Shown: piece after piece, positions 1 through 3,263 of the stretch
Layout of the letters: the number at the start of each line of letters is the position of its first letter
Position numbering within the stretch: position 1 is the stretch's first letter
Source of the DNA: Clostridia bacterium
GTDB lineage: Bacteria; Bacillota; Clostridia; Oscillospirales; Acutalibacteraceae
Reading direction: 5' to 3'
Length of the DNA stretch: 64,000 bases
NCBI GenBank assembly: GCA_024692685.1
Contig: JAILMJ010000044.1
Span: 1 to 64,000, forward strand
Translations under genes and position numbers: made by a program
Notes under the pieces: generated by a model
Told to the model about the DNA's origin: nothing
Databases searched by the model: none
The model's input: only the letters and a program-made list of their open reading frames with translations

Positions 1-554
1 TCGCACATTTTGTAATATTTCACAAGACTGAAATCATGACCCTGACCGAAATCCGGATATTGTACGCAATACATAAATTCTCTTGACTGAGTTGATTTAT
101 AGAAATAATTGTTGTCGGGATCTTTCATGTTCAGATAGCAGAGAACTGTTCTGAATTCCTGTCTTATCGACCATTTGCCGGGTTCATATTCATCAAGAAG
201 TTTATTGACGGTATCCATAAACGATTCAATCTTATTCTGTCTTTTTGAAAGATCGCCGCCGTCATCGTCAAACAACTCAATGAATGCGTTTCTTATAGTT
301 TCGACCAGTTCAGGTCTTTGAGCAAGAGCAACGATTCCGCTTGTAGGATGCATAGTGCTGCCGTCAATCAGAGTGCTTGATTCTTTTATTGCGTCTTTGA
401 ACATTTGAACAAAGTCGGCAGCATCGGGGTTCCAGTTCTTTTGAAAACACTGAACAGCCTGTAGCTTAAAATATTCGTCTCTGCCGCCGTTGTTTATATA
501 TTCGTAGTTTTCATAGTAGTTATCGAGTAATTGATTCAAATTAACAGTATTCAT
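1..554 (-). CDS. N-terminal part of a McrB-like AAA ATPase / restriction-associated protein (runs off the window start)
   Basis: Open reverse frame from ATG at 554: MNTVNLNQLLDNYYENYEYINNGGRDEYFKLQAVQCFQKNWNPDAADFVQMFKDAIKESSTLIDGSTMHPTSG... The EYFK.xAVQ.FQ.NW...A.DF..MF layout resembles the N-terminal region of Clostridial McrB-like proteins, recalled from memory. The ATPase core lies outside the window. Confidence 0.45.
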   Translation of the reverse strand, partial: MNTVNLNQLLDNYYENYEYINNGGRDEYFKLQAVQCFQKNWNPDAADFVQMFKDAIKESSTLIDGSTMHPTSGIVALAQRPELVETIRNAFIELFDDDGGDLSKRQNKIESFMDTVNKLLDEYEPGKWSIRQEFRTVLCYLNMKDPDNNYFYKSTQSREFMYCVQYPDFGQGHDFSLVKYYKMC

Positions 555-569
555 TATAAAACTCCTTAT

Positions 570-1721
570 TTAAAATTCATTTTCATGTTCTTTGAAAAAA
601 TCCGCGTAAACTCTTACATTTTCAAGTTCCGTCCATTTACAGACCGAGGCGTCTTCATCATCGAGATTGTATATTTTCGCTCCCTTCATCGCAAGCAGGA
701 GCGGTGAATGGGTCGCTATTATGAACTGACAGCCGAAAAATCGCGCCGATTCTTCTATAAACTGTTTAAGTTCAAGCTGCAATTTCGGAGCCAGACTGTT
801 TTCCGGCTCATCCAGTAAATACAGTGCGTTTTTGTCTATCTCCTCGGTGAGATATTTCATTGCCGTCTCGCCGTTTGAGCCGGCGGCAATATTCTTTTCA
901 ACACGCTTTGTTATGTATTCCGAGGTCGCCTGTGTTGCGGCGTCAAAATACTCGCTCCAGTTATCATAAAATTCCATACCCTTAAATCTGAGATTTTCGG
1001 GGTCTTCCGTGATTTCTCTTTGTAAATCACGGCGTTTATCTCTTACCGATGTGCGGTGAGCGTTTATGCCGAGATTTGCGCTTCTTACCGCGTTCATCTT
1101 TTTGAAAATATCATCGCTTGTTATAATCTTGCTTTCACCCGGAATCTCTCTGATTTCCATTTCGCAAAGATTGCAGTAATCATTAAAGAAATCGGTTTTG
1201 TTATACGGAGCGTTTCTGGTAAGTTCAAACTTCTCTGCTATAACATTTAACAAGGTAGATTTACCGCTGCCGTTGCTGCCGTAAAAAACAGTTATCGGCT
1301 CAAACTCAAAGACCGGACATTCGTAAAAACGAGTAAAGAAACTGAAGGGATAGTGCGAAGAATAGACCTTTGTTTGGCTTGCTTTTCTTTCGGGGTCACC
1401 GTCTTCGGCATAAAGCCAAAAACGCTCTTCTGCTTGACTCGGTATTTTCATTGAGTAAAGATAACTCCTCAAATTCCCGTCTCCTTTCCGTTTCTTTATT
1501 TTGTTCCCGGATTCTTCTTTTTCCAAATACCTGTTGTAATATGGAATAATAAATTCATATACCGTCTGTTTGTCTCTTATATCATTTTTCTCTATGAATC
1601 CGGCGATATATTTAACTGACTCGGTTTTTTCGGCAACGGCTGTCACAGACAATACAAACCGTTCATCTCTTTCGATTGCGGCAAGCAGTTCTATCAGATG
1701 CCTCAAATCTTTATCAACCAT
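570..1721 (-). CDS. AAA family ATPase, ABC/SMC/RecF-like (AAA_15/AAA_21 type)
   Basis: Walker A VFYGSNGSGKSTLLN, Walker B LYLLDEPENSLAP, H-loop IIATHSPLLL; start overlaps the stop of the upstream ORF (TAATG). Confidence 0.85.
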   Translation of the reverse strand: MVDKDLRHLIELLAAIERDERFVLSVTAVAEKTESVKYIAGFIEKNDIRDKQTVYEFIIPYYNRYLEKEESGNKIKKRKGDGNLRSYLYSMKIPSQAEERFWLYAEDGDPERKASQTKVYSSHYPFSFFTRFYECPVFEFEPITVFYGSNGSGKSTLLNVIAEKFELTRNAPYNKTDFFNDYCNLCEMEIREIPGESKIITSDDIFKKMNAVRSANLGINAHRTSVRDKRRDLQREITEDPENLRFKGMEFYDNWSEYFDAATQATSEYITKRVEKNIAAGSNGETAMKYLTEEIDKNALYLLDEPENSLAPKLQLELKQFIEESARFFGCQFIIATHSPLLLAMKGAKIYNLDDEDASVCKWTELENVRVYADFFKEHENEF

Positions 1722-2410
1722 TAAAAGACTCCGTACTTTTCATTCAAAAGTTTAATATGTTCAACAACATCATTTCTGACGCTTTCGGGTTCGAGCACCT
1801 CGACAACACCGCAATGCTGCACAAACCAGGAAGTAATACCCCAGCCGTCATTGACCGTTACACCGGCTGTTACTTTACCGTTTTCAACTTTTTCAATATG
1901 AAACGCTGTTCCGAAAGTGTCCACAAGTAAATCAATTCTGTCTTCATCGCAGGTAAGGCAGATAAATGTTGTTTCACCGCTGAAGTTATAGATATTCCTT
2001 TCAACAAAATCTGCGATTCGTGTTTTCGCACCGTTTCCGAGCAGTTTTTCCGGAGGGATGGCTTTTTCTTCAAGTATTTCGGGCTCGCTGATTCTTTCAA
2101 GGCGAAAATACGAAAGAGTATCGTATTTATCATAGTTGCCGATAAGATAATACCTGTCTTGCCTTCGGACAATAGTGTATGGGCTTACCGAATATTCCAT
2201 GCCGTCATATCTCAGATGCTTTTTTAAATCTGTGCCGGTATATGTGTATTTGAATTCGATTTTGGATTGTTTCGATATTGCTTTCAAAATTATATCAATA
2301 TTGTTTTTTGTGACCGGGTCACCCGTATGCCCGGAAGATAGCAATGGAGTAACTGATTTCAGAACCTTTTGAGAATCAATACTCGCCAGAGCGCTGATTT
2401 TATTAATCAT
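1721..2410 (-). CDS. WYL-domain regulator, C-terminal part (downstream of an in-frame stop)
   Basis: Contains IEFKYTY...KHLRYDGMEYSVSPYTIVRRQDRYYLIGNY, typical of WYL domains; same reading frame as 2426..2713. Confidence 0.75.
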   Translation of the reverse strand: MINKISALASIDSQKVLKSVTPLLSSGHTGDPVTKNNIDIILKAISKQSKIEFKYTYTGTDLKKHLRYDGMEYSVSPYTIVRRQDRYYLIGNYDKYDTLSYFRLERISEPEILEEKAIPPEKLLGNGAKTRIADFVERNIYNFSGETTFICLTCDEDRIDLLVDTFGTAFHIEKVENGKVTAGVTVNDGWGITSWFVQHCGVVEVLEPESVRNDVVEHIKLLNEKYGVF

Positions 2411-2425
2411 TTCTTTTCTGTTCTT

Positions 2426-2713
2426 TTACGTTAAGAATTCCGAACTGGCAACTGCATCCATAAGAACCTTTAATTCCCAGTCTTCAAATTCACGGCTTGC
2501 CATAAAAAAACCGCGTTTGTTATCGCTGTGAAGCATAATATCATTGCCGCAGTCACGCAGGGCATATAGATCTCGCAGAACGGATTTTCTTTCAGTTTCA
2601 ATGCCATACAGTTTCAGCTTTTTGATTATCTGATTAACGGGTACAGGGTGGTCCTCGTCGGTTTGTTTCATTATTTCCAGAACCCTGAGCAGTTTAATTT
2701 TTGATATTTCCAT
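2426..2713 (-). CDS. HTH N-terminal part of the same WYL-type regulator
   Basis: KIKLLRVLEIMKQTDEDHPVPVNQIIKKL..ERKSVLRDLYALRDCGNDI is the usual wHTH of DeoR/WYL regulators; ends at TAA 15 codons before the next ATG in the same frame. Confidence 0.7.
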   Translation of the reverse strand: MEISKIKLLRVLEIMKQTDEDHPVPVNQIIKKLKLYGIETERKSVLRDLYALRDCGNDIMLHSDNKRGFFMASREFEDWELKVLMDAVASSEFLT

Positions 2714-2860
2714 TAAGTATCTCCCGCCTTTGCAAGTTTATTCTAACACACATACTATACCATATTCGGGACAGGTGAGCAAGCGTTTTCAAAAAATAAG
2801 ACGACAGTTCAAAAACTGCCGTCCGAATGTCAACAAGTACCCTCACCCTCCGGGTATTCC

Positions 2861-2933
2861 CCCTTCGGGCTCATAACCTGAGCCATAAAGTTAAATTTCG
2901 GCTCACAGTAAAAGGAACAGGCACCGCAAATGC
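2861..2933. repeat. Direct repeat copy A (73 bp)
   Basis: cccttcgggctcataacctgagccat...cggctcacagtaaaaggaacaggcaccgcaaatgc; 5 mismatches to copy B at 3101..3173 by eye. Confidence 0.9.
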
Positions 2934-3100
2934 GTGATAGGTTTTCCTGTTGCTTTTTGAAATACAGTTTGCGTGGCCCCTCAGAAACATGGTCGTCTCA
3001 CTCGCTGTTTCGCTTCGTGATACTCCCTGTTTCTTCACCTCAGCGTAACGCCTTCATCTGCCACAGGCAGCGGCGTCACGCTTCGCCCCCGTGTTATTCG

Positions 3101-3173
3101 CCCTTCGGGCTCATAACCTGAGCCATTAATTTAATTCCCGGCTCACAGTAAAAGGAACAGGCACCGCAAATGC
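3101..3173. repeat. Direct repeat copy B (73 bp), overlapping the tRNA-fMet terminator
   Basis: Same sequence as 2861..2933 offset by exactly 240 bp. Confidence 0.9.
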
Positions 3174-3187
3174 AGTGCCTGTTCCTT
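3150..3187 (-). terminator. Terminator-like hairpin immediately 3' of tRNA-fMet
   Basis: Minus strand AAAGGAACAGGCAC-TGCATTTGCG-GTGCCTGTTCCTTTTACTG; 14-bp perfect arms starting right after the tRNA CCA. Confidence 0.75.

Positions 3188-3263
<76 letters not shown>

Follow-up and report, generated by a model that had tools for sequence, protein, structure and literature searches.

A probable tRNA-fMet island in a Clostridia bacterium and a family of stand-alone McrB-N/Tudor proteins

Organization of the locus

The window analysed is a 64,000-nucleotide stretch of a Clostridia bacterium of the Acutalibacteraceae (contig JAILMJ010000044.1, positions 1 to 64,000). At its left end, the ORF listing shows tightly packed minus-strand frames running from position 2713 to position 1. 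Both the strand and the packing agree with the original prediction of three genes, but their number does not: four open frames are present, the gene of the WYL regulator being split. The predicted sharing of TAATG by two genes was found at 1719-1723, where the stop codon of the WYL gene overlaps the start of the ATPase gene. A gap of 15 bases with a good ribosome site separates the ATPase gene from the following one, hereafter g3.

Position 1 of the window is the end of its contig, C66, and not a gene boundary. Indeed, positions 1-141 are the exact reverse complement of the first 141 bases of another contig, C71, the g3 frame carries on from the window into C71, and its homologues align through the join. 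Since an exact 141-base overlap is expected in a de Bruijn assembly, C66 and C71 were read as neighbours, which recovered the flank to the left of position 1. On the joined contigs, the WYL regulator, the ATPase and g3 are followed by the ADP-ribosylglycohydrolase, then by an unnamed gene and a SLOG protein, and finally by the copied 3' end of the tRNA (Table 1). The motifs FFTDDS and GGDSDT of the ADP-ribosylglycohydrolase, read by eye, are intact, and a short gene start at C71:3139 ends abruptly after about 32 codons. Neither a recognizable nuclease nor McrC was found at the locus (window flank and C71), and the McrC family (PF10117) has no match in the genome, whose assembly is 91% complete.

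Table 1. Features of the locus, of its continuation on contig C71 and of the tRNA-fMet hotspot in the genus
Feature	Position	Strand	Basis or remark
Contig-end overlap with C71:1-141	1..141	.	Exact match of contig ends
g3, first half (stand-alone McrB-N/Tudor gene)	1..554	-	Rest on C71 (L003:142-694, +)
ABC-type AAA ATPase, 383 aa, intact	570..1721	-	Pfam AAA_21 1e-14, AAA_15 2e-11
ATPase extra N-terminal region, 85 residues: four helices and linker	1467..1721	-	Alignment, AlphaFold
WYL and WCX domains of the WYL regulator, 229 aa	1721..2410	-	Pfam, PADLOC
5' part of the WYL regulator: winged-helix region, 95 aa	2426..2713	-	Alignment with six intact relatives
79-base direct repeat, copy 2	2855..2933	.	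blastn; 92% identical to copy 1
79-base direct repeat, copy 1	3095..3173	.	Between tRNA and operon; blastn
Initiator tRNA-Met (CAU)	3188..3263	-	ARAGORN; putative attachment site at the 3' end
ADP-ribosylglycohydrolase	C71 (L003) 815-1612		Pfam PF03747 1e-33
Unnamed Cys-rich protein	C71 (L003) 1908-2579
YspA/SLOG protein	C71 (L003) 2757-3119		Profile match 2e-17
Hotspot examples in the genus	G578:C3:238500-250375 (L117); G576:C31 (L119, L120); G583:C6, C10 (L121, L122)

A copied tRNA end delimits the putative island

As predicted, the operon adjoins an initiator tRNA: the tRNA-Met (CAU) reads as such from its sequence, with a C1 x A72 mismatch and a GGG/CCC anticodon stem. Its 3' end is copied at C71:3610-3639 (29 of 30 bases identical in blastn), and this duplication, as in an island, would bound a cargo of about 6.5 kb. 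The 136 bases outward from the copy on C71 show 83% identity to the flank of a copy in another genome (G583). On the other hand, no integrase- or recombinase-like gene such as an island would carry was found in window positions 1-3187 or in C71. Because the integrase is absent, the island status rests on the copied tRNA end and on the species distribution: among the 45 species of the genus, a single one has stand-alone g3, and a second carries the g3 N domain only in a long frame, as the McrB-fused form. The locus is thus probably a tRNA-fMet island of about 6.5 kb without an integrase. We infer that it was horizontally acquired and, as a further step of this reasoning, that its integrase has since been lost. 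The 79-base direct repeat is perhaps a residue of successive integrations; this type of sequence is also present 3' of tRNA-fMet in a genome of the same genus (G579, L131).

Elsewhere in the genus, tRNA-end copies bracket other cargo, lying about 6 kb apart in G578 and enclosing 5 kb between two of them in G583. Tyrosine-recombinase-like genes, as read from the sequence, adjoin the tRNA or a copy of its end in G576 and G583. The duplicated ends, the tyrosine-recombinase-like genes and the diversity of the cargo mark tRNA-fMet as a hotspot of integration in this genus (examples in Table 1), and a pair of DUF3990 and HTH genes is recurrent in the cargo.

The WYL regulator is interrupted and the ATPase is intact

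The WYL gene is split by an in-frame TAA at 2426-2428, the two pieces lying in a single reading frame. Since all six intact relatives aligned are uninterrupted at this position, the stop is due either to a nonsense mutation or to an error in the assembly. Translation could restart at an ATG at 2410, 15 bases past the stop. The protein matches WYL (PF13280, 6e-10) and WCX (PF25583, 2e-6) in Pfam and a WYL profile in PADLOC (8e-25). The domain identity of the predicted WYL regulator is therefore upheld, but not a single intact gene, because the winged-helix, WYL and WCX domains are present with the TAA between them rather than in one continuous frame. WYL regulators of defence islands, of the BrxR type, likewise combine a winged helix with WYL and WCX and are encoded by the leading gene of the operon (PMC9122601), whereas here the frame is broken and the BREX genes are absent. 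WYL proteins regulate DNA-damage responses too (PMC10693628).

The assignment of the second gene to the AAA_15/21-type ATPases was confirmed by its Pfam matches and by its intact motifs, namely Walker A GSNGSGKST, signature SNGE, Walker B/D LYLLDEPENSL and H-loop ATHSP in the alignment. After the H-loop region, no nuclease domain was found. The AlphaFold model (pLDDT 79) displays an N-terminal four-helix domain and a disordered linker, and this 85-residue region is missing from the aligned relatives. As a known domain the extension was rejected, with zero matches in 295 genomes of the order. The best PADLOC matches of the ATPase are PtuA, AriA and others, through the ATPase motifs only, and AriA and PtuA also come first among the PDB sequence matches (1e-5 to 1e-3). 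The AAA_15/AAA_21 ABC-type head, with Walker A, Walker B, signature and H-loop, is thus common to the protein and to OLD/Gabija (GajA), PtuA (retron Ec78/Septu) and AriA of PARIS. In contrast to these systems, the locus contains no TOPRIM or HNH nuclease, fused or adjacent to the ATPase, no AriB and no retron.

In 200 genomes of the family, the relatives of the ATPase are about 290 residues long, share 44-51% identity with it and are mostly solitary, amid genes for methyltransferases, transporters, chaperones and tRNA synthetases. Type I restriction-like genes lie near one of these relatives (L034). Homologues in metabolic contexts would speak against the original prediction of a defence operon, and such contexts were found for the relatives of the ATPase only.

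g3 carries the N domain of McrB without its GTPase core

Completed by the contig join, g3 encodes 368 residues. Homology to the N domain of clostridial McrB covers the first ~235 (E about 1e-13 to 1e-20), and those checked among the McrB proteins with such an N domain possess AAA_5 cores and McrC neighbours. Pfam gave no match to AAA_5 or a GTPase core in the 368 residues. The McrB-like N-terminus had been taken to point to a type IV restriction module, with an McrB core and an McrC or nuclease partner to be sought in the left flank. The homology of the N domain holds, but the module does not, since the GTPase core, McrC and a nuclease are all missing; the flank contains no such core, McrC or nuclease, and joining C71 ruled out an McrB GTPase or McrC further left. 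Clostridial McrBC, in which the N domain is followed by AAA_5, sometimes with EVE between them, and McrC is the partner, thus has the N domain in common with g3, whereas g3 lacks the core and McrC and continues into a C-terminal coiled coil with a Tudor barrel. Furthermore, apart from one long partial sequence, the McrB-fused N domains group in the tree as a single clade (100/100), which excludes the stand-alone N domains, that of the window among them. The position of g3 rules it out as a recently truncated McrB.

In one McrB protein (L018:1831-4230), the g3-type N domain is followed by an EVE domain and then by AAA_5. Since EVE lies there between the N domain and the AAA core, the N domain is probably not simply the modified-base reader but comes in addition to one.

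A homologue of g3 with 48% identity was modelled (pLDDT 92) as a helical N domain followed by a coiled-coil hairpin in which a small barrel is set. Foldseek aligned the barrel with UvrD/PcrA Tudor domains at a probability of 1.0 and a TM of 0.72 on 47 residues, with a weak E-value (0.14), and several UvrD/PcrA entries were near the top of the ranking for this short barrel. The small barrel appears to have the same fold as the C-terminal Tudor domain of UvrD/PcrA, although in g3 it is inserted in a coiled-coil hairpin and the protein is not a helicase. The Tudor domains of UvrD/PcrA bind RNA polymerase (PMC5397179, PMC7585439). For the helical N domain no convincing PDB match was found, and searching the PDB sequences with a profile of g3 returned chance matches only. 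No family fitting g3 was found in Pfam, NCBIfam or PHROGs, and its sole PADLOC match, to LmuB (7e-4), is confined to the coiled-coil half. In those parts of the CoCoNuT paper (PMC11090510) reached by word searches, there was no account of a stand-alone N domain.

Stand-alone relatives of g3 are found near several restriction enzymes

Stand-alone relatives of g3 were identified at 34 named loci of Clostridia and are mostly about 370-390 residues long. A phage origin was rejected, with no relatives in viral contigs and one partial match among phages; plasmids gave one full and one partial match. The genes adjacent to these relatives were counted on the same strand within 150 bases, near-duplicate loci being dropped (n=26). 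As a control served 38 genes of these loci at distances above 4 kb; the sample is small and the figures are raw counts. GmrSD accounts for four of the 26 adjacent genes (L068, L088, L095, L096) and for none of the 38 distant ones. PDDEXK_4/PDC-S26 (L064), McrC (L084), KilA-N (L065) and ADP-ribosylglycohydrolase (L063) are each adjacent in a single case, and at L094 the relative adjoins Nmad3, itself preceded by Nmad2. An unannotated family of ~200 residues also adjoins g3 relatives (L066:6875-7444, L085:5227-5910, L092:3943-4617, L087:10152-10769). It has no Pfam match and bears an invariant D...ExK pattern, and by its sequence it is probably a PD-(D/E)XK nuclease. Many relatives have no recognizable defence neighbour. 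Since the distant control genes include Cas9, HsdR and HsdS (type I restriction), a part of the association with restriction may reflect shared islands. Collectively, the stand-alone McrB-N/Tudor proteins are an uncatalogued bacterial family, often located beside DNA-restriction enzymes.

The pair formed by g3 and the ADP-ribosylglycohydrolase is also present in another genome (G402, L063), where the two genes are 8 bases apart and the proteins, among the closest relatives, show 48% and 52% identity to those of the window and C71. A related hydrolase lies near g3 at L082 and another kind of hydrolase at L072. In the Oscillospiraceae islands L076, L078, L079 and L081-L083, Sel1-repeat-type proteins immediately precede g3, in some cases with McrBC upstream.

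The exact trio of WYL regulator, ATPase and g3 did not recur in the 34 named loci or in the genomes searched of the family, order and class, so that a conserved combination was not borne out. Such a lack of conservation, like a left flank without core or effector, had been named beforehand as speaking against the original prediction. The nearest approximation (L060/L081) consists of WYL, a different ATPase of 238 residues, McrB, McrC, two Sel1-repeat-type proteins and g3. WYL and a different 238-residue ATPase are found upstream of g3 at L076 as well, and in G100 (L015) WYL is followed by an unknown gene of 321 residues and a broken g3. WYL, such ATPases and g3 share a type of island and are not a fixed unit.

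Discussion

The best explanation of the locus, held with moderate confidence, is a horizontally acquired, partly decayed island of the defence type at tRNA-fMet, its function being presumed. As to the defence-like setting originally predicted, the tRNA-bound appearance of the island and the frequent restriction genes beside the g3 family support it, but a conserved system does not emerge. In this operon-like run of genes, the WYL protein would normally act as the repressor, the ATPase could act as a nucleotide-driven switch, and g3 would be an accessory or adaptor protein of defence-type operons. Its helical N domain is the module placed before the GTPase core in clostridial McrB, and once before EVE too, and its Tudor barrel would dock the protein to a partner, for instance a nucleoprotein complex or RNA polymerase. 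Since a DNA-cutting effector is absent here, the locus could be a remnant, or it might depend on the ADP-ribosylglycohydrolase or on partners from outside the locus.

It is possible, if less than probable, that a once complete system is now non-functional, the WYL gene being a pseudogene and the ATPase and g3 being left without an effector. The in-frame stop in WYL points in this direction, as do the missing nuclease and McrC, the broken gene start on C71 and the absence of an integrase. Against such complete inactivation, the ATPase motifs, the g3 frame and the motifs of the ADP-ribosylglycohydrolase are intact, and WYL translation could resume at the downstream ATG. We also consider it unlikely that these are host stress or housekeeping genes unrelated to phages, with the lone ATPase and WYL acting in a nucleotide or DNA-damage response and g3 associated with RNA polymerase: the patchy distribution of g3 and the restriction genes accompanying its relatives speak against this, even though the relatives of the ATPase live mostly in housekeeping surroundings, UvrD-type Tudor domains bind RNA polymerase and WYL proteins also control DNA-damage responses. 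A true type IV McrBC-like module with its GTPase and nuclease further left is extremely improbable despite the common N domain, given the end of g3 without an AAA core and the unrelated genes next to it in the recovered flank, the lack of an McrC match in the genome and the place of g3 in the tree.

To return to the decayed island of the defence type, the window locus itself is probably worn out. The part worth following is the uncatalogued family that it exposes, which carries the N domain of McrB and accompanies several unrelated restriction enzymes. A bolder and quite unlikely proposal is that stand-alone McrB-N/Tudor proteins are defence adaptors plugging into GmrSD, PD-(D/E)XK nucleases, McrBC and ADP-ribosylglycohydrolase, the N domain sensing or docking and the Tudor domain reaching RNA polymerase, so that here and in G402 the ADP-ribosylglycohydrolase would be brought to RNA polymerase. 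If this were true, the hydrolase might, for example, undo phage ADP-ribosylation of the host RNA polymerase. The role of the shared N domain would, in turn, help to explain a domain of clostridial McrB for which neither a Pfam model nor a solved relative was found here.

Two further observations concern the g3 family. A relative broken by internal stop codons (L059:7223-8198) shows that decay is not limited to one locus. The coiled-coil/Tudor half also occurs alone, as frames of ~165-184 residues in one genus (L144-L148, in G821, G781, G631, G940 and G973).
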